From a virus: a DNA stretch of 26,054 bases. How positions within the stretch are numbered: the stretch's first letter is position 1; every line of letters begins with the position of its first letter. Under the pieces are notes generated by a model. That model worked only from the letters and a program-made list of their open reading frames with translations. It had not been told where the DNA came from and did no database searches. The DNA is taken from positions 1-26,054 of the IMG/VR virus record IMGVR_UViG_3300009496_000062; one strand, 5' to 3'. A program made the translations under genes and the position numbers. Shown in pieces: positions 1-26,054 of this stretch.

Positions 1-3000
1 CTGTAGTTTTACTTTCAGCACCTAAAGCATCTGCTTCACGCTTTAAAAACTCATTAATGTTTTTACTATTATATTTACCAGTTAAAACAAAGTCTACAAA
101 CTTAATAGGATCATTTAAAGATTCTTGATATTCTTTTTCTGTAAGTTCTTTAGTACTTTGCTTGTCACTAGATTTTCTTTGTGCTTCAGATTTTAAATTA
201 TTAAATGCTCCGTTTTCATTAAGTTGTATAAACTCATTGATAAACTCCTTCATTTCAGACAAAGGAATTTCTTTACCTTGAAATATTTCATCAAATATTG
301 CGTCTCTATAACCGGGTCTTTTAGACATTTCCTCTTTAACAATGTCAAGTATGCCTCTATTTTTTAAAGCTTTTTGAAGACCATTTATATAATCTCTAGC
401 TTCTTTATTAACTTTGTTAGTTGCTTGTTTTTTAGTTAGCTTTTCATCTTTCATTAAAGATTCTACTCTGCTAGCCATAGCTTCACTACCTAATCTTCTT
501 TCAAATGGATGATGCCATATTTCATGTACCTCTGTTCCACCAACATTTTCTCTCGCTGTAGCATCTGTATTAATTAGAGCTATAGACTTACCATTAACAA
601 CACCTTGATAACCAAAACCAGTTGAACTAAAATTACCACCATTATCTTCCATGAATTTCTCCATTTCAGCATCGTTCATTTTTTTAATTTCAAAACCTGC
701 TTTCTCGTACTCTTCAATTTTTTCTAACTCTTTACCTGCTCTTTCTACTTTAGCAGCTTCAAGTAATTGCTTTTTAGATCTTAAGTTGACATCTAGTTGA
801 GCATCTATTTCTTCTATTTGAGTTTCATAATCAGCTTTGTCTATACGTTTAGCTTCATAATCTTTCTTTATTTTTTCCTTAGAAGATTCTAATCTACTTT
901 CTGTTATAGATTCGTCTATATACTTTTGGAAATTAGCATTAGTTAAGTCTCCTTGAAAATGTCTTTTAGCTACGTCTCTCATTGAATAACTAAAATCTAC
1001 AACTTGTTGAGCTTGAGCAGCGTCTAATCCATAAAACTCTAACATTTTAACACCAGACGTTCCGTCACTAGTGAAAGATGCAGCTTCTATAACAGACAAG
1101 TTCTTAGCATTAAAACCTCCTACGGATATAGCATAAGCAGCTTGCTCTAATTCCTTGTAACTACCCATAACTGCTGGATTTGCTAAATCTTTAGCTAAAA
1201 CATCTAAAGGTATTTTTAATTTTAATCTATTAGCATTAAATTCTAACGCAGATATTTCTTGACTTTTTTGAGACTCGGATTTATTACTGTTGTTTATTTC
1301 TTCTTTCTTTAATTCTAAAGCTTCATCAACTCTTTCAGAAAAAGCTTCTTCACCTTGGCTATACTCTTCACTTTTATCAGAAACAGTTTTCATGCCAAGA
1401 GATCTTCTGAGCTTGTTCCACTGAGGGTTGTTTCCTCTTATTAAATCTACCTCTGTTCTAAACCTCTCTATAGTCTGTTTACTATACTTGTCTGGTCTAG
1501 ACATACCTAAAAACAATAAAGCTCCGCCTAACTCCATTAAATGATCAGGATTGGTAACATCGTTTAAAGCTTGAGCAACGGTTTTATCACCTGCTAAAAC
1601 TGCACCAACATTATCAGCCGTGCTTATAGTCATAGCACCACCAGCAGCTCCAGTTACTTTACTTCCAGCAGCTATTGTGGTTCTACTTAAAGACTTAACT
1701 GATCTATCAATCAAACTACCAGTATATTTTAAAGCTCCAGCTTCTGTAGATGCTGTAGTAGGAAAAGCATAAAAATATTCTAAAGCATTTCTTTGCGCAT
1801 TAGAACCTGTTTTGTAAGTATCTACAATGGCTTTATTAAACTTGCTAGAAGCTTGTGCACCTTTTAACCTTATAGCACTAGCTGTTAAGGCAAATAATTC
1901 TGGATTTTCTATACCTGGTCCAAAATCTAAAGATCTTTCCATTGCATTACTACCTTGCAAGCCTACGTACTCTGTCATTACAGCGCTGCCATAAGTAGCG
2001 ATGTTCTTAGCCATGCTGCTTGATACTCCACTTCTTAGTAAAGTTCTAAAAGTAGCAGCTCTTAAAACCGCAGGGCCAAATCCCACACCACCAGTTGCTA
2101 AAGTTGTTAAATATATCTCAGCTCCCATTCTCATTAAGCCAGGTATCATTTCACCAGAGCTTTTCCACAGATCGTGTTCTATATGATGTAGATTAGCTTT
2201 GTCTTTATCTGTTTTCTTGATACCATAGACATCCTCTAAGATGTCAAAACCTAATTCACGTTGTTTATCTTTAGTTAAACCACTGTTCATACCTACAGCT
2301 TCAGGAGTGGCCTCTACCACACCTTCTAAAAATCTACCAACACCACTTTCTGTTTTACCAAAAGAAGTTGGATCTGCATTTAAACTCTGCGCAAGGAGTA
2401 AGGTAGACCTATACTCAAGTAAATCATTATATTTTTTCACTAAAGGATCTTGACCACTAGCATCACCATATTTATCGAATAAATAACTGTCTGTTGTTGA
2501 GACTGGTAATGGAGTTAATAAATCAGGCATTTCACCTGTTTCAATCCATTTTTCTATTTTTCTAAAATCTTCATAAGCACTTCCTTCTGCTCCTACAAGT
2601 TCTTGGCCTGCAGCTCCAAACATTTGTAAAATACTACCTTCATTAAGTGTCTCGCTTAAACCTTTTCTTTTTATTTCTTTAGCTAAATTTAATAATTCAG
2701 TATCTGTATCTAGTAACTTTTCATCTAACTTGTCTGGAGCATCTAAAAGTAAATCTTTAACAATGTTTTTAGCGTTTGAATTTAAATTATCTAATTGTTC
2801 TTGTCTATCTTTTCTTACAAACTTATCACCTTGTTTTAATAAGTTAATTTCATCATCATCTAAGAAACTTCTAACTTTATCTAAATACTCTTTATATTTT
2901 ATTGTTTTTTCTTGCCCTTCTTCTAATTTCTTTATTTCAGCTAGTTCAGACTGTAGTTCTTCTATTTTATCTTTACTTTTACCTTCATAATAAGGTAGTT

Positions 3001-4399
3001 CAGCTTTTAAAATTCTATCACCATCTTCTTTAGCTTTTTTTGTTTTAATATCTTGAACAGTCAAAGCTATTACATCTTTTTCCGCTTGTAATAAAGCTTG
3101 CTCTTTACTCAGTGTATTACCTTCAGCATTTAACAATTGTTCTTGTCTTTTTAATACCTGCTCTTGGTTAACACCAGCTTCTATTACCCCTTGTTTAATA
3201 TCATTATCTACTTGTTCTTTACTTCTTTGGTCAACAAGTTCGTTATAAGCCTTAGTAATTAATGGTCCTTCAGTATTTTCTCCCCATGTTTGTGAACCAT
3301 CTAACCAAGCTCTGACATTATTTAATTTTTCTTGGTAATCTGCTTTAGGGCTAATGCTTTGACCTTGACTGTTTACACGCGCGGTGTTTTCAGCAGAGGA
3401 TATAACTTCTTTTGGCATGCCTAGACTTTCTAAAGTTTCTATGGTTTTGTTTATATCACCATCTAAGTCATCACCAATTATATTAGGGTTAAAATTGTTA
3501 TTAGAAACTAATGATTTAACTTCGTTTTTAAAATCAAAGTTTTTCTTAGCTTTTTTATTTTGAATAGACTCTTGCCAAGCTATATTCATTTGTCCAAACT
3601 CAGTGTCAACAGCTAAATCTATAGCTTCATCTAACGATGTTACATTTGGATTTGATCTCATTATAGATATTGCTTTTTGAGTTAAACCAGGAGTAACTTG
3701 CATTTCTACATCTTGACCTTGTTCATTTTTAACCACATAATCTGGACCTAGAGTTCTTATATCATCAGAGTTTTGATACTTGCCATCTTTGTATTTAGAT
3801 TTATTGGCAAACTCTAGAAAATCTATATAGTTATTTCTACTTTCTTGCTCTCTATTTTCTGGATCTACAACTGTATACTCACCACTTGAACTTCTTTTAC
3901 CAGCATTGTAATCTGTATTCATCTGCCATCTAAATACTTCTCCATCTTCATTAGTTACATCTAGCATATCATTAGACACACCACCATTCATTATAGGCGT
4001 GTCAAAAGTGAGATTAGGATATTGAGAAGCTAGCTTTTTTTCTAAATTCTCTTCAGCATTATCAAAAGCTGAATTTTGCCCTTTCATGTTAAAGTCGTTG
4101 TAAGATATATCTTTACTAAACTTTGATTTAGTTGGTTCGGTAGTTTGAAAAACATCTTGTTCTTTTACCCCGTAATCTCCAGATATAGAAACTTCTTCCT
4201 CTGGTTCAACATATGGTTCGATGTTTATACCTACAGCTTTGTTAAACTCTGCATAATCATCACCTAATTCTTCAGAGTGAGTTTCAAATAACATTCTTGA
4301 GTAGTCTTCATTACTCATGGCGGTTTTAAAAGCATCATAATCATTTCCTACTTCGTCGCCGTAAGCAGAGAATAATAACTGTAAATAGTCTTCGTTCAT
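1..4399 (-). CDS. Giant internal virion (ejection) protein with HExxH zinc-peptidase motif, C-terminus outside window
   Basis: I translated this frame by hand: it is open from the ATG at 4399 to the left edge, 1466 codons without a stop, so the protein is truncated only by the window. It starts 6 bp after the previous gene. Visible parts are two 28-residue tandem repeats (residues 2-57), long charged coiled-coil stretches (about 400-580 and 1167-1250), hydrophobic Gly/Ala-rich segments (about 747-785 and 907-966), and near residue 1292 the motif VHEIWHH in a context typical of zincin metallopeptidases (HExxH, H1292, E1293, H1296). Size, position last in the tail/ejection block and hydrophobic segments suggest a counterpart of T7 gp16: carried in the capsid, ejected into the envelope. 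The peptidase activity is inferred from the motif; the third metal ligand is not identified. Confidence 0.8.
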   Translation of the reverse strand, partial: MNEDYLQLLFSAYGDEVGNDYDAFKTAMSNEDYSRMLFETHSEELGDDYAEFNKAVGINIEPYVEPEEEVSISGDYGVKEQDVFQTTEPTKSKFSKDISYNDFNMKGQNSAFDNAEENLEKKLASQYPNLTFDTPIMNGGVSNDMLDVTNEDGEVFRWQMNTDYNAGKRSSSGEYTVVDPENREQESRNNYIDFLEFANKSKYKDGKYQNSDDIRTLGPDYVVKNEQGQDVEMQVTPGLTQKAISIMRSNPNVTSLDEAIDLAVDTEFGQMNIAWQESIQNKKAKKNFDFKNEVKSLVSNNNFNPNIIGDDLDGDINKTIETLESLGMPKEVISSAENTARVNSQGQSISPKADYQEKLNNVRAWLDGSQTWGENTEGPLITKAYNELVDQRSKEQVDNDIKQGVIEAGVNQEQVLKRQEQLLNAEGNTLSKEQALLQAEKDVIALTVQDIKTKKAKEDGDRILKAELPYYEGKSKDKIEELQSELAEIKKLEEGQEKTIKYKEYLDKVRSFLDDDEINLLKQGDKFVRKDRQEQLDNLNSNAKNIVKDLLLDAPDKLDEKLLDTDTELLNLAKEIKRKGLSETLNEGSILQMFGAAGQELVGAEGSAYEDFRKIEKWIETGEMPDLLTPLPVSTTDSYLFDKYGDASGQDPLVKKYNDLLEYRSTLLLAQSLNADPTSFGKTESGVGRFLEGVVEATPEAVGMNSGLTKDKQRELGFDILEDVYGIKKTDKDKANLHHIEHDLWKSSGEMIPGLMRMGAEIYLTTLATGGVGFGPAVLRAATFRTLLRSGVSSSMAKNIATYGSAVMTEYVGLQGSNAMERSLDFGPGIENPELFALTASAIRLKGAQASSKFNKAIVDTYKTGSNAQRNALEYFYAFPTTASTEAGALKYTGSLIDRSVKSLSRTTIAAGSKVTGAAGGAMTISTADNVGAVLAGDKTVAQALNDVTNPDHLMELGGALLFLGMSRPDKYSKQTIERFRTEVDLIRGNNPQWNKLRRSLGMKTVSDKSEEYSQGEEAFSERVDEALELKKEEINNSNKSESQKSQEISALEFNANRLKLKIPLDVLAKDLANPAVMGSYKELEQAAYAISVGGFNAKNLSVIEAASFTSDGTSGVKMLEFYGLDAAQAQQVVDFSYSMRDVAKRHFQGDLTNANFQKYIDESITESRLESSKEKIKKDYEAKRIDKADYETQIEEIDAQLDVNLRSKKQLLEAAKVERAGKELEKIEEYEKAGFEIKKMNDAEMEKFMEDNGGNFSSTGFGYQGVVNGKSIALINTDATARENVGGTEVHEIWHHPFERRLGSEAMASRVESLMKDEKLTKKQATNKVNKEARDYINGLQKALKNRGILDIVKEEMSKRPGYRDAIFDEIFQGKEIPLSEMKEFINEFIQLNENGAFNNLKSEAQRKSSDKQSTKELTEKEYQESLNDPIKFVDFVLTGKYNSKNINEFLKREADALGAESKTT
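4229..4396 (-). repeat. Two tandem 28-residue repeats at the N-terminus of the giant protein
   Basis: Residues 2-29 and 30-57 align without gaps. Shared positions include NEDY at the start of each unit, a Leu-Phe pair at unit positions 8-9, Glu at 15, Gly at 17, Asp-Tyr at 19-20 and Phe at 23. The DNA copies have diverged, so the duplication is old or under protein-level selection. The units are acidic and aromatic, and may form a paired helical module that docks on a partner in the virion; that role is inference. Confidence 0.8.
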
Positions 4400-4405
4400 A
4401 TTATA

Positions 4406-6901
4406 TTATACTTTAAACTTAGCAAGTTGTTCTTTTGTTAAAGTGTATCCATAACCTTTAGCAATATCTTCTACTCTTCTTTTATATTGTTTTTGTAACC
4501 CTTTTTCATTTGGTTCACTATTCGCATATAAATCCACCCATTGATCAAACATTTTTTGATCATCTATATTTTTAAACTTAGCTTTATTATCGTTGTATTT
4601 AGTAGTTGTTTTATTGTAATCTCTAAGATATTCTCCTCTTTCACTAGGCTTGATTGCTCCAGACGCTAATAGCATAGTAACTCTAGGATCCCAACCTATA
4701 TTAACATGCTGCATTCTCATCATTGCTTGCTGTCCATCAGATAATCCATCATAAACTTTTCCACCTAAATCTGTTTTCAAACCTTTTTTAGGTTGATCAC
4801 CTCCCCAATACGTAGCCTTTTTACCGTCTTTATTAACTCCTTCTTGTACTTGGTCTTTACTATTTAAGTAATATTGAAAATCATAATCTTTATAATCTGT
4901 TAAACCATAAGTATTATCACCTGATCTACCACCATAAATAACTTCAGAGTTTCTCATTAAATCTTCTTGCTTTTTATTTTCAGATTTAAAGTCTCTACTT
5001 GACTGTGTTGTTGCTTTTACTTCAGGAGTAGGTTTAACTTCAGGAGTAGGTTTAACTTCAGGAGCAGGTGCTTGAGTTGTTTGAGGTTGTTGTGATTGCT
5101 TCCAGTTATCATACTCTATTCTTCTTTTATCCATCATTGGTAAACTTTCATAGTTTATATTTGGATCTGGAACAAAATTACTTTTAGCCTCTACTTTTGG
5201 TTTAGGTTGATTGTTTTTATTAAAACTAGCAGCATTTAGTGGGTTGTTTTGTTTAACAGCAGGAGTAGTTTGTTCTTCTTCTTTAGTAGAAGTTTCGCCT
5301 TGTAATTTGTAAGTTTTGTTGTTTATGCCAAAGTCTCTTCTAAGAGTGTTCATATCATTAGCATTACCAGTATTATAACTTCTTACCGCATCTCCTACAA
5401 TAATATCGTTTGTTTTAGGATCTCTAGAGATTTTCTTTAAGGTTATAGAGAAAGTACCATCTCCATTATCCTCTGTGTCCATTCTGCGGTCTTTTGGTTC
5501 ATCGCCTGTGAACTCTAAAATACTACCACTACCTTTATTGCTATTACTCATTTTAAAGTTCTTAAGATCATCTAAAATCTCGGCAACATCGCTTTCTGAT
5601 TTAGCATTAGCAAACATATTATCAAAATTAGTAACAAACTCCTTTTCATTATTTGCAGCTTTAAGTTTAGCTATACCTTCGAGTTTACTAATATTAAATT
5701 TTTCTTGAGCTCTTCTCTCAGAACTAGTTTGTGAACTAATACTTTGTGTTTTGTCTATTCTATCTGGCTTTAACAAGTTTGAAGACTCGTCATAATACTT
5801 GAAATAAGCATCAGCTGCTTCTCTTTGTATGTCACTATTGTCCCACATGCCTATAGCTGACTGAACAGCTAAACCGCTTGATAAATCTAAATCATTAGTA
5901 CCTCCTAAACCATCGCCACCTAGTATTTTACCTCCAGTTTGTTGATCTAGTTTTTCTAAAGAAGCCAAAGCTTTAGGATCTCCAGCTTTAGCTTGTTCAA
6001 ACAAACCATTTATTATTACAGGGTAATTATCAGTCATTATCTTTTTATCATCCATTAAAGCTCCAGCGTTTGATCCTGCTAGATTTTGCTTATATAGATT
6101 ATTAGCTTCTGTATAGTCTTCATAACCTTTTTTATTATACTGATTGCTGTTGTCAGCAACTTTTTTAATATAGTCATCGTATTCCATGTCTTTAGCTATA
6201 CCTGCTTGAAATTCTTTTCTCAAACCAGATGGATCACCGTAAGTATTAACATTAATATCACCACTTAAAGCACCTTTAGTAAAATCAACAGCATCAACCA
6301 TTAATGGATTATTTGTTTTTTTACCATTTTTATCCAACTCCATTACACGACCGCCTTTAGCATCATATACCTCAAACTCTACATGGCCAGTTTTTTCGTT
6401 ATAAACTTTCTTAGTTGTACCACCGTTTTCCATTACTTGCATAACGTAGTTTGGTGTTCTAGCATTTAATGATCCCGGTGCGAATAGTTTTTTACCACCA
6501 GCTTCATTATATTTTTCATTCATGCTCGTCCATGCTCCACCAACTTCTGATAACTGTCTAGGTACATTTTTTAAACTCTCTAATTGTTCTCTACACTCAC
6601 TAGTTTCACATCCTAAAAGTTCATAATACTTATTATGCATATTGTGTAAAAAAGCTTTAGTATCTTTAGCATAGTCACCTTTTGGCTTATATTTTTCTAC
6701 TTGCTGATACCACATCTCGTCACCCATAGCTCTTTTCTTCTGCTGTTCTTCCAATATTTCCATATTAGCTTCTATGTTAGCAGCTTGTTGAGCATTAATA
6801 GCATCGAACTCTTCATTAAAATCTTGATTAAAGTTCTTTACCTGCTTGTTAATTTCAGCGTTAGTTTGGTTTATCTGTATTCTTGGATTTTCGTAGCCCA
6901 T
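4406..6901 (-). CDS. Large internal virion protein, 831 residues
   Basis: Not recognised at family level. It is hydrophilic and has a Gln/Asn/Glu-rich helical N-terminus (residues 1-75), a cysteine pair at C98 and C103, a mixed middle region, a Pro-rich linker with three PEVK-type repeats near residues 611-628, and a compact basic C-terminal part containing LSDGQQAMMRMQHVN followed by GWDPRV. It has no signal peptide or membrane helix. It lies between the glycine-zipper protein (15 bp upstream) and the giant protein (6 bp downstream), the position of T7 gp15 relative to gp14 and gp16, so I infer an ejected core protein. The C-terminal segment faintly resembles the Leu-x-x-x-Gln region of phage lysozymes, but no catalytic residues can be assigned. 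Confidence is high for the gene and moderate for the role. Confidence 0.75.
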   Translation of the reverse strand: MGYENPRIQINQTNAEINKQVKNFNQDFNEEFDAINAQQAANIEANMEILEEQQKKRAMGDEMWYQQVEKYKPKGDYAKDTKAFLHNMHNKYYELLGCETSECREQLESLKNVPRQLSEVGGAWTSMNEKYNEAGGKKLFAPGSLNARTPNYVMQVMENGGTTKKVYNEKTGHVEFEVYDAKGGRVMELDKNGKKTNNPLMVDAVDFTKGALSGDINVNTYGDPSGLRKEFQAGIAKDMEYDDYIKKVADNSNQYNKKGYEDYTEANNLYKQNLAGSNAGALMDDKKIMTDNYPVIINGLFEQAKAGDPKALASLEKLDQQTGGKILGGDGLGGTNDLDLSSGLAVQSAIGMWDNSDIQREAADAYFKYYDESSNLLKPDRIDKTQSISSQTSSERRAQEKFNISKLEGIAKLKAANNEKEFVTNFDNMFANAKSESDVAEILDDLKNFKMSNSNKGSGSILEFTGDEPKDRRMDTEDNGDGTFSITLKKISRDPKTNDIIVGDAVRSYNTGNANDMNTLRRDFGINNKTYKLQGETSTKEEEQTTPAVKQNNPLNAASFNKNNQPKPKVEAKSNFVPDPNINYESLPMMDKRRIEYDNWKQSQQPQTTQAPAPEVKPTPEVKPTPEVKATTQSSRDFKSENKKQEDLMRNSEVIYGGRSGDNTYGLTDYKDYDFQYYLNSKDQVQEGVNKDGKKATYWGGDQPKKGLKTDLGGKVYDGLSDGQQAMMRMQHVNIGWDPRVTMLLASGAIKPSERGEYLRDYNKTTTKYNDNKAKFKNIDDQKMFDQWVDLYANSEPNEKGLQKQYKRRVEDIAKGYGYTLTKEQLAKFKV
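5019..5072 (-). repeat. Three tandem 18-bp repeats encoding a PEVKPT linker
   Basis: On the plus strand the unit acttcaggagtaggttta occurs at 5019-5036 and, identically, at 5037-5054; a diverged third copy follows at 5055-5072. It encodes repeated Pro-Glu-Val-Lys-Pro-Thr in the 831-residue protein, a flexible extended linker between its middle region and its C-terminal domain. Two identical copies suggest recent slippage, so copy number may vary between related phages. Confidence 0.9.
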
Positions 6902-8047: not shown

Positions 8048-10324
8048 TTATTGTGATGATACCACAAATTTACTTGATACGCAGTATAACTCTTTAACTC
8101 CACCAAGTTGAGTAGAATCATCTGTGCTTAATTTAACTGTCGTATAAAAACCTTTTATACCGCTCATTGAGTTACCAAAAACTACCTCACCATTAAAAGG
8201 TTGTGAAGCATTAACCAAGTTAGCTACATACTTGTTTTCTTTTAAATAAAATCCAGCATGTTGTTGCATTTGAGTATTAGGATCTGTATATTCTCCCTCT
8301 TGCAAGCTTGGAATAGCATTTACTGTATCTTGAGCTGGGTAGTAAGTACCTGTAAAAGTATTAAACAACGCCGCAGTACTATCTGACACAAAATACTCTA
8401 CTTGCCAACCACTACTACCTTCGTATCCTATTGTTTGAAAGTTTTTAGAAATAGATGGCTTAGGATTAAATATAAACTCTATTGAAGATTTATATTGTGT
8501 ACCATAAAAATTACCATGATTTAGTTGACCTCCTTGATAATGTTGGTATAAGTCGAAGTTATCAACAGTGTAAAATTCATTTTTTAAACTACCTATTACC
8601 GTAGGATTATAACTATAAAAACTAACCCAACCATTTATACTTTCATCAAAATTAAGAGTGTTAAAAGTGTTATATGTTCTAAACTGATCTGTATAATCAA
8701 AATTATCACCAACTTCTCTACCTTCTGAAACCGCAGCACATGGTTGTGTAACACCATCTTTTATAGATAATACATAATTTTTATTATGATTATCAAAACC
8801 ACCTAACAGCTCATCATAAACATAACTTATAAATGAAACCGGGTAGTTTTTTACTATATCACTATATGATTCAGTGTTAAAAGTATCTGGTCTCCAGGGA
8901 AGTGAAACTGTTATAAGATTACCTTGTACGTTTGTAACAAATAATCCAGGAACTTGTATATTATTTATTTGCATAGAAGAACCTACAACTATATTTTCAA
9001 CGCCACACTCTGCGTTTACAACTAAAAAATTATTAATATATTGTTCAGGTAATAAACCTTCGTCAAAGTACTTAAAAGATAAAGATCTTCTTAAAGGTTT
9101 GTCATCTATAGTAGAAAACCTATCTCTAAAATAATCAGTCATACCATATGAAGATATTTCAGTTAAACCGTCTCTAGACAGTCTCATCACAGCATTTCTA
9201 TATTTATCTGTAAAATATTGTCTAAAACCAAATTGAGCCCACGACTCAGGATTCTTACTTATACCAAATTCACCAGTATATGGAACAATTTGACCTATAA
9301 CCATTTTAGTGGAAGAAACAGGTGTTCCAACACCTTCAGCGGAGTATATTGCATCTTTATCTATCAATGCTTTACTAACTTTGTTTTCTTGAAATATAGT
9401 TAAGTTTGTATCGTAAGCATAAAGCTTTTGAATAGACCCATTTTCTGGATCAACACTTTTTGTTATTGGATTTGCTGTGGAAAAAACATTTGTATTGTTT
9501 ATACCAGTTAATGAGTTGAATATTCCAGAATAAATCAATGAAGAACTTCTAACTGTTTGTTGATTATCTTCTTCAACAGTATAGGCTTTAACACCAAAAT
9601 CCAAAGTGGTGTTATTGTATCCACCAAATATTCTAGCTTCTTCAATTGCCCATTGTCTCTCCTTGCCTAATTCTTCATTAGGATTTCTACTAACCAAACT
9701 CCCACCACAAGATGGTAAGTCTTGACTGCCTTGAGTAACAGTTCCGCCCTCTACAGGAGAAGATCCACCAAATGATACATCTAACACTATGGTATTAGCA
9801 TCTGGTTTTTCTAATATTGTATGTTGACCATTGTATTGTGGATTTGTTGGTGTTGTGGATGTTTGTTGTACGTTAACAATATCACCTACAGAAAAATACG
9901 CATCAGATCCGTTACCCGGTGCTGTGCTTGTTAAAGCAACTTTTCCACCATTAGTTGGTGATGGAGGTAACCCTTGTGAAACTCTATAAGCACCATTTTG
10001 AGCATTATCATAAAAATTCCAAACTACAGGAGCATAATCATTCCAATTTCTTCCTCCCCAAGGAAAACATGGATATGGCATTAACACATCAGGGTTTTGA
10101 CCTGAAGAATCAGGTTTAAATAATTTACTACCCCAAGGTAAACCAGGCCATGTTGGTATTACATAACGACCCTCAGTAGTTCCAATAGAGCTTTCAGAAC
10201 CTCCAACTTTAACTTCAGTTGTTACTGTAGAAGCATAATCACCTGTGGAAGTTTTGTCTGTGCTTCCCACTACTTTTTTTAACCAAAAAGCGTTGAAATA
10301 TTTAATTGGTATTTGATAAGCCAT
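8048..10324 (-). CDS. Tail stabilisation/nozzle structural protein, 758 residues
   Basis: It is beta-rich and contains stretches I recognise from tail proteins of environmental Bacteroidota phages: NAFWLKKVV near residue 11, IPTWPGLPWG near 56, a small SH3-like insert with VGDIV near 147-195, RIFGGYNNTTLDFGVKAY at 231-248, YDTNLTIFQENKVSKALIDK at 304-323, and GISKNPESW leading to FTDKYRNAVMRLSRDGLTEI at 371-390. The last two look like beta-propeller blades, as in T7 gp12 or P22 gp10-type stabilisation proteins that form the short tail tube. It follows the 1741-residue protein by 29 bp in another reading frame. I infer a tail nozzle or tail-hub component; the exact family needs a profile search. 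Confidence 0.7.
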   Translation of the reverse strand: MAYQIPIKYFNAFWLKKVVGSTDKTSTGDYASTVTTEVKVGGSESSIGTTEGRYVIPTWPGLPWGSKLFKPDSSGQNPDVLMPYPCFPWGGRNWNDYAPVVWNFYDNAQNGAYRVSQGLPPSPTNGGKVALTSTAPGNGSDAYFSVGDIVNVQQTSTTPTNPQYNGQHTILEKPDANTIVLDVSFGGSSPVEGGTVTQGSQDLPSCGGSLVSRNPNEELGKERQWAIEEARIFGGYNNTTLDFGVKAYTVEEDNQQTVRSSSLIYSGIFNSLTGINNTNVFSTANPITKSVDPENGSIQKLYAYDTNLTIFQENKVSKALIDKDAIYSAEGVGTPVSSTKMVIGQIVPYTGEFGISKNPESWAQFGFRQYFTDKYRNAVMRLSRDGLTEISSYGMTDYFRDRFSTIDDKPLRRSLSFKYFDEGLLPEQYINNFLVVNAECGVENIVVGSSMQINNIQVPGLFVTNVQGNLITVSLPWRPDTFNTESYSDIVKNYPVSFISYVYDELLGGFDNHNKNYVLSIKDGVTQPCAAVSEGREVGDNFDYTDQFRTYNTFNTLNFDESINGWVSFYSYNPTVIGSLKNEFYTVDNFDLYQHYQGGQLNHGNFYGTQYKSSIEFIFNPKPSISKNFQTIGYEGSSGWQVEYFVSDSTAALFNTFTGTYYPAQDTVNAIPSLQEGEYTDPNTQMQQHAGFYLKENKYVANLVNASQPFNGEVVFGNSMSGIKGFYTTVKLSTDDSTQLGGVKELYCVSSKFVVSSQ

Positions 10325-21668: not shown

Positions 21669-24077
21669 TTACATTTTCGGAACTTGACCTCCTAGTTCTT
21701 CTGTTAACGGTGGTCCTTGGTTTTGAGTAGCAAAGTCAGTTGGTAATAAACCATCTTGTCTCTGCTGTATCATTGAGCTTTGTTGAGTAGCTTCCATTTT
21801 AGATCTTTGATCTTTACGATCTTCAATCATCTGCTCTCTATTAACATCTTTTTGTATATTTATTTGAGCTAATTGTTTGTCAAATTCAAACTTCTGTTGA
21901 GCTATTGTTAATTGATTCTGCAGCTCAGCACTCATTTGTTGAATTTTAAAATCAGATTTTCCTTTTTCTAATTGAAGTTCTGTTTGTGCTATAGCCTCTC
22001 TTTTTTGTACTTCATACATAGCTGCTTTCTCAGCTGATTCAGCATTAGCTTGTGCTTGAGACTGTATCATCCTTTGTTGAGCTTCTTGATCTTGTTTAGC
22101 TTTTTGTCTTCTTTTAAGTTTTAACAACTGGTTAGCTAGTCTAAGATTGTGTATATTTCTTATATCAATAGCATCTTCAAGGTTTATTTGATTACCCTTT
22201 AAGGCTATTTCAATGTTTTGCTCTAATATTTGTTTATCTTCTTCGTCTGGTTCTAAATCTAAATAAATACCAAAATCATAAAGATGTAAGTCTTTTATTT
22301 CTTCTAAAGTAGCAACATTATACAAACTTATACTATTAACTAATGATTCGTTAGTTAATTCAAACTCTAAAGAATCTGCAACTCTTAAAGCTACGTTTTC
22401 ACAAGTTTTTAACGTAATATATAAACCTGCATCTAGTATGTGTCTAGTTGCAACATTTGATTGAGCAACAGCTAGTTTTTGTAAACCTAATAAAGCATCT
22501 TTATCTGGATTACTCCCATCTCTAGCTTCATTAAGACCCGTCACATCCCTTATCATTTGTAAGTAATATTGATAAGTTTGTATTAAACTTTGTATTTTAG
22601 CTTGATGAGCTGACGTTTGTAACTCTTGTATTGGTACTCTACCAGGGTTCATGTCACCATCCTGCGTCATCGATCTACCTACAATACTACCAGTTTGGAA
22701 GTACATGTTTAAAGCTTCACGAGGATTATAGCTAGTTCCATTACCTAAATCAACCTCTGCTAAGCCATCAACATCTAAGTAAACACCATCAGGAACCATC
22801 CTAGCTAAAACTTGTTGTAACTTAAGTGATGTTAATTGTATCATGTCACCAAAAGTTATCATACGTTCAACTAAAGAAGTAATTCTACCCTTGTACATTG
22901 AAGGAGCACACAAAGTATAATTCATATTTACTTTACAAAGGTTTGAATTAGGTCTAGTCATATTTTCTGCAACCTTCCAATCCAGCATTATTGGATGCCC
23001 TAATATTTTTGCACCATGGTAAAGAACCTCTATAGATCTACTTACTCTCTCAAAGCCATCGTTTGGTGGCGGAGCGAAAGAATCTGGCTTTTCTAAAGCT
23101 TTTTCTAGTCCATTAGCTGTTTTCTTTATTTTAAAAACCTGATCACTATAAGTTTTGTATTCAAAATATAAAACCTGTATCGTGTCGCTATCTCTATTAC
23201 CTCTGTAAGATCTTCTGTAGTTAGTATTACCAGGCATTTTTTGAATGTTCTCTAACTCTTCATCTGTTATGTCTGGAAACTGCTTCTTAAGTTCTGGTAA
23301 TGAAATATTTTTTACTTCACCTACGTAGTATATATCTTCAAAATTAGGATCATCAGTGTATGAATAAACAAGGTTAACTGGGTCAACATAATCAACAACA
23401 ACACCTTCTGATTTATTCCAGGTTGTTTTAACAGCACCAATACCAAGTTCAACTAAATCTCTATAAAGCCTACGTTTAGTTAGTTCGTATTTATTTCTAT
23501 CTAAAGTATTATTAATAACTTCTTCTTCAGCTATTTCTACAGACTGCTTATAGTCTAACTGTAAATGTATTTCAAGTTCTTCTTCGTTTTCTGGAGGGTT
23601 ACTCATATCTTTTACTTCAGATATGTCAACTCCCATTTGAGCTTTAACCTCTTCTATAAAGTCTCTAGTAACTATATTTTTATGCAATTTTTCAGCATAG
23701 GCAGTTCTTTTTCTTTGAGAAGCTGGATCCTGAGCATAAGCTTTTATGTCATATATTTTTTCTGACATACCATTAACAACTATATCTACAAACTTAGGTA
23801 TAATAGCCACAGGTGTCCAATCTAGGTTTAAGTAAGATAAATCACCATCAATAGCCATTTCATCTTTGTACTTCTGTATAGATTGTTCTGCTCTTGCATA
23901 TAATCTTCTTCTATGAAATACGTTATAATTATTTGTGTATCTAGCTCCGCCAACCCCAGCAGCCCACCACTCGTCTTCAATGGCTCTACCTACTTGCAAA
24001 CCATAGTCAAGTGTCATTTTCTCTTCTTGTGGAACTACCTGATCAGGAAAGGAACTTTGTGTATTAGTGTAAATCAT
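21669..24077 (-). CDS. Portal protein
   Basis: At 802 residues this is a large podovirus/crAss-type portal. Visible parts: clip and stem region with VDIVVNGMSEKIYDIKAY (97-114), an alpha/beta core (GAVKTTWNKSEGVVVDYVDP, then NLVYSYTDDPNFEDIYYVGE), the segment SMYKGRITSLVERMITFGDM, and a Gln/Glu/Lys-rich coiled coil near 650-770, which would make the C-terminal barrel or crown. It forms the dodecameric vertex through which DNA is packaged and ejected and to which terminase and ring proteins dock. It begins 3 bp after the terminase stop, so the two are probably translated from one message. I am confident from order, size and recognisable sequence. Confidence 0.88.
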   Translation of the reverse strand: MIYTNTQSSFPDQVVPQEEKMTLDYGLQVGRAIEDEWWAAGVGGARYTNNYNVFHRRRLYARAEQSIQKYKDEMAIDGDLSYLNLDWTPVAIIPKFVDIVVNGMSEKIYDIKAYAQDPASQRKRTAYAEKLHKNIVTRDFIEEVKAQMGVDISEVKDMSNPPENEEELEIHLQLDYKQSVEIAEEEVINNTLDRNKYELTKRRLYRDLVELGIGAVKTTWNKSEGVVVDYVDPVNLVYSYTDDPNFEDIYYVGEVKNISLPELKKQFPDITDEELENIQKMPGNTNYRRSYRGNRDSDTIQVLYFEYKTYSDQVFKIKKTANGLEKALEKPDSFAPPPNDGFERVSRSIEVLYHGAKILGHPIMLDWKVAENMTRPNSNLCKVNMNYTLCAPSMYKGRITSLVERMITFGDMIQLTSLKLQQVLARMVPDGVYLDVDGLAEVDLGNGTSYNPREALNMYFQTGSIVGRSMTQDGDMNPGRVPIQELQTSAHQAKIQSLIQTYQYYLQMIRDVTGLNEARDGSNPDKDALLGLQKLAVAQSNVATRHILDAGLYITLKTCENVALRVADSLEFELTNESLVNSISLYNVATLEEIKDLHLYDFGIYLDLEPDEEDKQILEQNIEIALKGNQINLEDAIDIRNIHNLRLANQLLKLKRRQKAKQDQEAQQRMIQSQAQANAESAEKAAMYEVQKREAIAQTELQLEKGKSDFKIQQMSAELQNQLTIAQQKFEFDKQLAQINIQKDVNREQMIEDRKDQRSKMEATQQSSMIQQRQDGLLPTDFATQNQGPPLTEELGGQVPKM

Positions 24078-24080
24078 TTA

Positions 24081-26054
24081 TTATATTATTTGTGAAGTTA
24101 CTCCGTCGTTGTCATATCTTTTAAAACCTAAATCCATGCTCTTAACTTGTCTTTTCAAGTTTGGTTTGTATTTATTTTTATTACAAGCCATTATTGCTAA
24201 ACCAGAGCTAATAGAAGCATCATGTTTAGTTCTTTTATTTATATCGAATTGAGACCAATCTTCTAAAGTGCGTTGATGATACATGTCTCCATAACCAGAC
24301 TCACGTAGACCTACAAAGTCTTCTATATAAGCCTCAATAGCTGCAGCATGAACTTGTTTAATGTCTTCACTTGAGTTTGGTATACCACCTATTTCTTTTT
24401 CCGCTATAGAAAGTTTATTCCAAACTTTATCTGGTCTGTTAATACTAAACTGCCTATAGCCTCTTCTTTTTAAATAGTACAACAACCTTGGTTTGTTATT
24501 TTCAGCTAGTATAGGCATACCATAAAAAACTAAAGCCATAAGAACATCTTCAAAAAATATTTCAGCTGTTTGTGGTCTAGCTATATATTCTAAAAAAAAG
24601 TGATTTGGTGGAGCATCTTCTAAAGAGAATTTAGTTAGTCCATGTAACGCTCCTTTAGAACCGCGACCGTCAACAGTACCGCTAATATCATAAGAATCAC
24701 AACCAAATGCTCCAATGTGTTCGTTACCTGGGTATTTAACTCCATTTTTATTTATTACGTTATTTTGTAAATCTAATGGAGGAACCCAACTAACATTAAA
24801 TCTACCATTTTTAGAAGGTAAAAAAACAACACTAGTATCCTTAACACCTTTTAACCATTGAAAATTACCAACAGTCGTTTGTACTGTATTATTTAATTCT
24901 TCATTAAAATCTATTTGTTCGTATATTTTAGTTAGATTAAATAATGAAGATTTAATTTCGTCTCTGAAAGCGTGTTTTTCAGTTCTTGGAAATTGCCTGT
25001 AATATTCATTTAAACTGTCAGGATCGTCTTTTAACCCGTCAACTTCGTTTTCCCAGTGCTCGATAACTCCTGTTTCAACTTCAATACCATCAACTCCGAA
25101 TGTTTTATTTTTTGGCGTAACGAATACAGGTGATCCAAAAGTATCCATGAATCCTTCGTAGTTCCACTCCATAGGGATGAATAAAGAATACAGTCCAGAA
25201 GCTGTTTGTCCGTTTTTATTTCTTCTTGTAACGTCTGAACTGTCGTATAATTTCTTAAAGTTGTTTCCACCTTTTTCTAAAGCATTTGAAGTTGAACCCA
25301 TCATACATTTACCTACGATCCTACGACCTAGTCTTAATGTAGTTTTTGTAACCCTCCAGTTATTTAATATGTTATCAGGTCTCTCCCATTTACCACTTTC
25401 ATCATGAGCTAATAGCTTTAGCTTTTCACCATCGTAAGAGTTGTCACCTGTGTTTTTCCAGTCAATAGTTGTATCTAAACCTCTTAACTCTTTTAGCTTT
25501 ACATTATCATCTAGTTTACGTCTAGTAAGCTTTGAAGCTGGAACCCTATATGCCAACTCAGTCTTCGGCCGATCCATACCGTCTTGAATTGGCTTGAAGA
25601 AAAATGGATAATTAACGGATATTGGTACAACTTTATCTGTAAACATTTTTTTTGCGTCTGATCCAGTTTTTGAAAGTATACCGAACCTAGCATCTGAAGA
25701 TATTGTTGCTTGGTTAACAAGTTCTGATGATGACATAAACGAAAACCCAGATCGTCTGTTTTTAAGGTAGCACATCCCGTAACACCTGTTATCTGCTTTA
25801 CATGCTTCCCAAAATATAAAGAACAATCTATTTGCTTCCCTGTAGTCTGCTGCACCAACGTCAATCTTTGACCATTGTAAGTACATGTAATGAGTACCAG
25901 TAATATAAGTAGGAATATTGTTATTATAAAACCAGTAACCTTGTTCTCTTCTTTTAAACTCTTCATCTATGTAATCGTACCACTTTTCTTTAAATTCAGT
26001 TGGGTATTCTTCCCAGTCAAATCTGCTTTTTATTCTACTTAATTCTTTCGGGTA
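24081..26054 (-). CDS. terL: Terminase large subunit, N-terminus outside window
   Basis: The frame is open from the stop at 24081 to the right edge, 658 codons. An internal Met at 25886 is not the start, because the codons upstream read the conserved QGYWFYNNNIPTYITGTHY. The ATPase domain shows an atypical Walker A at visible residues 99-106 (RRSGFSF), Walker B with LLAHDE at about 214-219, and the coupling motif MMGSTSNA. The RuvC-like nuclease domain shows an acidic residue in GAFGCDSYD (D453), one in LAENNKPR (E518) and one in KHDASISSG (D612), the expected catalytic triad order. It is the packaging motor and the headful or site-specific cutting nuclease. The sequence resembles crAss-like and related Bacteroidota phage terminases. 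The small terminase is not in the window. Confidence 0.93.
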   Translation of the reverse strand, partial: YPKELSRIKSRFDWEEYPTEFKEKWYDYIDEEFKRREQGYWFYNNNIPTYITGTHYMYLQWSKIDVGAADYREANRLFFIFWEACKADNRCYGMCYLKNRRSGFSFMSSSELVNQATISSDARFGILSKTGSDAKKMFTDKVVPISVNYPFFFKPIQDGMDRPKTELAYRVPASKLTRRKLDDNVKLKELRGLDTTIDWKNTGDNSYDGEKLKLLAHDESGKWERPDNILNNWRVTKTTLRLGRRIVGKCMMGSTSNALEKGGNNFKKLYDSSDVTRRNKNGQTASGLYSLFIPMEWNYEGFMDTFGSPVFVTPKNKTFGVDGIEVETGVIEHWENEVDGLKDDPDSLNEYYRQFPRTEKHAFRDEIKSSLFNLTKIYEQIDFNEELNNTVQTTVGNFQWLKGVKDTSVVFLPSKNGRFNVSWVPPLDLQNNVINKNGVKYPGNEHIGAFGCDSYDISGTVDGRGSKGALHGLTKFSLEDAPPNHFFLEYIARPQTAEIFFEDVLMALVFYGMPILAENNKPRLLYYLKRRGYRQFSINRPDKVWNKLSIAEKEIGGIPNSSEDIKQVHAAAIEAYIEDFVGLRESGYGDMYHQRTLEDWSQFDINKRTKHDASISSGLAIMACNKNKYKPNLKRQVKSMDLGFKRYDNDGVTSQII

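Follow-up and report, generated by a model that had tools for sequence, protein, structure and literature searches.

The gene at the left edge of the window (the whole 26,054-nt stretch analysed here, positions 1-26,054 of the IMG/VR record IMGVR_UViG_3300009496_000062) appears to encode a giant modular, polyvalent-type cargo protein of an uncultured Elemovirus-related phage, and residues ~1235-1440 of this protein (80..697; all window features described here lie on the minus strand) very probably form a zincin-like metallopeptidase domain. The reading that best explains the observations as a whole, with a rough probability of 0.45, combines this zincin domain with virion delivery and self-processing of the giant protein. 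The gene product, P0001, is represented in the window by its N-terminal 1466 amino acids, encoded in a stop-free frame (2..4399) that continues past the left edge.

As the preliminary description had stated, residues 1292-1297 read HEIWHH (509..526) and follow IALINTDATARENVGGTEV (residues 1273-1291; 527..583), which was confirmed by translation; the preceding stretch is predicted to form a strand, a helix and a loop leading into the active-site helix. H1292 (526-524) and H1296 (514-512) would bind zinc, while E1293 (523-521), the predicted catalytic base, would activate water for proteolysis. The composition of the 1466-aa protein (nine histidines, three of them within HEIWHH) gives a probability of 0.0047 for an HExxH motif, and a value of ~0.005 for one protein is not tiny across many proteins. 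Nevertheless, the best 80 of at least 529 relatives hold 77 HExxH motifs against 0.42 expected from shuffles, so chance is refuted as the origin of HEIWHH and keeps a practically negligible probability. The relatives were selected through the conserved C-terminus of the protein, and a scan with this part confirmed at least 529 relatives of the giant gene among 599 matching stretches.

The motif is retained in close as well as distant relatives; its loss in homologues, which would have spoken against the original proposal, was not the pattern found. HE[IV]WH is kept in all seven sequences of the closest set and stands at residues 1282-1358 in all six related loci, among which full-length proteins of 3289, 3218 and 3367 aa occur. 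Across 79 aligned proteins, 78 conserve the first His, and the Glu, the second His and a downstream Glu are present in every sequence; few further columns in the motif region pass 50%. Mean column identity of the zincin domain in the family alignments is ~14-16%, with H, E, H and the downstream Glu invariant or nearly so, and dN/dS between the window and the related locus L003 (~0.28) indicates purifying selection. Nearly all 80 relatives retain the metal-binding motif although the domain around it has changed almost completely, which makes an active role of the zincin-like domain in the infected cell likely. The three exceptions are L016, which reads HEILGH (HExxxH), L020, which reads EELFH, and L089, in which HEIYH lies in an upstream reading frame separated by an apparent frameshift in an A-tract. 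The split of the L089 giant gene (L089:7802-7863), located just after the sigma-like region described below, is probably an error and possibly real; natural processing was considered as its cause and rejected in favour of a probable frameshift.

The same conservation bears on the improbable alternative that the fold has been retained as a structural or binding module, either catalytically inactive or with some other HExxH chemistry. One relative (L020) has naturally lost the first zinc histidine (EELFH) with its downstream EE intact and may be an inactive version, and HExxH also occurs in radical SAM enzymes, as mentioned in the report on the N4 virion RNA polymerase (PMC12633501). A purely structural role, however, would not be expected to give the pattern seen, in which nearly all 79 sequences retain H, E, H and the downstream Glu but little else.

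Structure prediction agrees with a zincin assignment. An AlphaFold model (428 aa, mean pLDDT 83) of the locus L002, which shares 99% identity with the window in the zincin region, shows a helical hairpin and three strands; the long hairpin immediately precedes the zincin domain (residues ~1157-1235; 695..931). In this model, HEIWH occupies positions 151-155 of a helix starting at 148 and interrupted at 155, i.e., at the second His, and E244 (E1385 of the window) falls within the helix 239-254. A compact relative of 203 aa (L044; pLDDT 88.5, pTM 0.82) has HEILH within the helix 76-91 and the Glu within the helix 136-152. Both models therefore have three strands followed by one helix that carries HExxH and a later helix that carries the Glu, a layout described for the metallopeptidases of polyvalent proteins (PMC5512222). 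The clustering of H1292, E1293 and H1296 on one predicted helix, on which the preliminary description had staked its proposal, is borne out, with the interruption at the second His in the window-like model.

Database comparisons are less decisive. A Foldseek search of the L044 model against solved structures placed one gluzincin at ranks 1-4, below significance (E 0.12-0.46), while that of the 428-aa L002 model returned no zincin, helical proteins dominating the matches. A sequence profile aligned two small zinc endoproteases over the motif, likewise not significantly (E 1.5). A family profile from which the window clade was left out detects the window domain at 22 bits, with shuffles scoring below 0. 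A profile search against Pfam zincins had been suggested as a check. Searches of Pfam, PHROG, NCBIfam and PDB sequences gave no peptidase match, either for the window protein or for the full-length proteins closest to it, and PF18818 (MPTase-PolyVal) matched none of 26 records at E values up to 1. The zincin active site proposed earlier is thus upheld by its helix, its conservation and a Glu candidate, but by no significant Pfam or structure match.

The third zinc ligand is most probably E1385 (245..247), located in MKEFINEF on the predicted helix 1380-1395, as judged by alignment to the invariant Glu of the family and by the helix in the model. In the family, an EE pair often occurs at this site, with the Glu in its second position, and most members have the Glu 52-72 residues past the first His; the window spacing of 93 residues is longer than usual, and the neighbourhood of E1385 shows the F at +5 and the G at +12 of the family. 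E1357 is a rival candidate, being likewise invariant among the seven closest sequences, and in a leave-one-out profile alignment the family Glu did not fall on E1385. The third ligand that the preliminary description asked for consequently has a candidate, although this candidate has a rival and lies outside positions 500-660, to which that description had confined the motif.

The remainder of the protein can be described from its full-length relatives, in which several unrelated predicted domains share one chain; the window portion reaches the zincin only. The modules run from a hypervariable N-terminal part through the zincin, a sigma-70-region-2-like domain and a HAD-like domain to a conserved C-terminus. 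The majority residue accounts for ~67-83% per column over residues 2400-3200 and ~10-33% before, i.e., hypervariability of the N-terminal two thirds (window 2-4399 and the relatives) contrasts with ~70% conservation over roughly the final 800 residues; choosing loci through the C-terminus favours high conservation there, and the contrast within each protein is nevertheless real. The sigma-like domain follows the zincin directly, ~100-230 residues past the Glu (L002:9093-9302; residues ~1560-1660 of L003). A profile of this region matched sigma factors of several groups in 13 of its 14 PDB matches (best E 0.011), Pfam Sigma70_r2 was found in two members, the best Pfam E was 0.00066 and another member fell below the curated cut-off, and the L002 model gave weak Foldseek matches to sigma-E region 2. 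The near-identical L002 carries this region (37 bits), and the window ends before it. Sigma region 4, sought by eye, was not established.

Further downstream lies a strongly conserved HAD-like domain with a DFDDT motif (residues ~2395-2650 of L003), which matches DUF2608, presumably a member of the HAD clan, in 9 of 18 members (best E 4.8e-7). A PHROG match of the full protein to a 'polynucleotide kinase' was reread as arising from this HAD-like phosphatase part, and a profile of the part against the PDB gave nothing convincing. Additionally, an EH pair at L003 alignment positions 2177-2178 (GHEEHTLPFGEF in L003) is kept in 76 of 79 sequences and is perhaps a nuclease-like motif.

The virus itself can be placed through its packaging genes. 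The terminase large subunit (24081..25886) and the portal protein (21669..24077) match the PHROG families phrog_6681 and phrog_6547, respectively, and the closest named phage record for both is MW202828 (67% and 49% identity), followed by Elemovirus, Cellulophaga phages of Pachyviridae and Pervagoviridae, and Tenacibaculum phage Gundel_1. A muzzle-like gene (8048..10324) carries the crassvirus muzzle C-terminal domain PF25729 (E 2.5e-9), and an 831-aa gene without a family match (4406..6901) stands immediately upstream of the giant gene. The matches of the terminase, portal and muzzle-like genes identify the window as part of the genome of an uncultured virus with relatives among flavobacterial phages, a marine bacterial virus whose host is suggested by these relatives; some related contigs measure 59-66 kb. 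Searches of phage records by tblastn with the giant protein and its C-terminal part gave no matches, and a scan of genome contigs gave no relative.

Gene order (after the muzzle-like gene) and synteny with virion proteins of Cellulophaga phages suggest that the giant protein is a cargo or ejection protein. The records of the syntenic giant proteins phi18:3 gp123 and phi40:1 gp101 list them as virion proteins detected by MS/MS, and synteny with them is the one line of evidence for virion carriage of the window protein; sequence homology to these two was not found, and both are devoid of HExxH. The earlier designation as an ejection protein therefore stands in terms of gene order and synteny but not of homology. 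Its comparison with T7-type internal proteins is not supported, since the related phages belong to Elemovirus, Pachyviridae and Pervagoviridae, and no evidence was found of a replaced muralytic domain that would favour the idea of a peptidase taking the place of a lytic transglycosylase. The zincin lies between unlike modules, is retained almost universally in the clade and is missing from some syntenic proteins, which speaks for a cargo function rather than for a part required in ejection itself.

A mechanism can be proposed on this basis, in which the giant protein would be packed in the virion and pass via the portal and tail into the host. There, the most probable substrate of the zincin would be its own giant protein, cut at or shortly after entry, which would free the modules including the sigma-70-region-2-like domain directly after the zincin and the HAD-like domain. 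Such self-processing, tentatively preferred here at somewhat under even odds relative to all alternatives combined, is favoured by the position of the zincin between unlike modules and by the published model for polyvalent-protein metallopeptidases (MPTases), which are proposed either to process their own chain, whether before entry or after it, or to target proteins of the host (PMC5512222). Against self-processing, the N4 virion RNA polymerase (vRNAP) also has an HExxH domain but is reported to be packaged without processing (PMC5512222).

In the main rival reading, the zincin would be an injected effector working in trans, with a protein of the host as its substrate, such as a component of defence or transcription. 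Host-directed MPTases are allowed by the same model (PMC5512222), and divergence of the domain (16% mean column identity) around a fixed active site would be expected if targets differ between hosts; moreover, the syntenic proteins of phi18:3 and phi40:1 mark HExxH as dispensable for ejection as such. However, the N-terminal two thirds diverge similarly, so the divergence is not specific to the peptidase, and no target is indicated; this alternative is consequently regarded as possible but distinctly less likely. Maturation of virion proteins in the head before release, in the manner of a prohead protease, has a precedent in the MPTase-carrying DdrB of phage P1, which is processed before packaging (PMC5512222). 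It is nonetheless a poor candidate, as the syntenic giant proteins in related phages have no HExxH and the zincin diverges far more than the conserved C-terminal part. Returning to self-processing, a more specific and rather unlikely version is a virion-delivered zincin-sigma fusion, in which the zincin would free the sigma-region-2-like domain, and this domain would bind host RNA polymerase and direct it to phage promoters.

Giant phage cargo proteins with a zincin are a known theme, and the window family escapes the Pfam model for such zincins. The giant protein fits the concept of the 'polyvalent protein', best known from the N4 virion RNA polymerase. With the phage-type polyvalent proteins (PMC5512222) it shares a giant multidomain chain, a mid-chain zincin adjoined by unrelated domains, and a predicted layout of HExxH, a Glu on a later helix and a three-stranded core; it differs in being unmatched by PF18818 and in its sigma-region-2-like and HAD-like neighbours, the word 'sigma' being absent from that paper. 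The combination of zincin, sigma-like and HAD-like domains was not found in the searchable open literature.

Among individual phages, the nearest counterpart is gp18 of the Elemovirus Flavobacterium phage elemoF 6-3D (NC_055853), the product of a syntenic gene (3694 aa) annotated as a structural protein. It has a homologous zincin (HEIFH at 1543; 32 bits against the family profile for the full protein; hhalign E 4.5e-6 over 132 columns), whereas its C-terminal part is not detectably related and the protein is without the DFDDT motif. Comparison by hhalign of the other giant-protein regions with Elemovirus, phi18:3 and phi40:1 gave no convincing homology. The giant protein of MW202828 (L096:741-12320) has two HExxH sites, at residues 1615 and 2500; the two score ~10 and 20 bits against the family profile; shuffled controls for such scores of outside relatives reach at most ~2 bits. 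N4 gp50 (Schitoviridae) is likewise a giant ejected protein of ~3,500 aa with an HExxH C1 domain (PMC12633501), but it carries an RNA polymerase and lacks strong homology, matching the family profile weakly (15.6 bits; hhalign over only 17 columns, P 0.003); a scan of viral contigs with the N4 vRNAP domain recovered N4 itself alone. The crassvirus cargo proteins (phi-crAss001 gp45-gp47, gp49 and gp50; PMC10172136) are similar in being large head and tail cargo of a muzzle phage, linked to the window virus through the muzzle-like gene alone. They differ in that the large proteins are related to RNA polymerase and that neither peptidase nor zinc is mentioned there; a literature search found no paper on a zincin in crAss-like phages.

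These observations place a conserved peptidase-like site in a probable cargo protein of a widespread group of uncultured phages, with at least 529 relatives, and directly beside a sigma-like domain. Furthermore, a cultured Elemovirus growing on Flavobacterium sp. BAL314 would allow the targets of polyvalent metallopeptidases to be tested directly. If true, the zincin-sigma fusion would be a counterpart, using the polymerase of the host, of the virion RNA polymerase strategy of N4.
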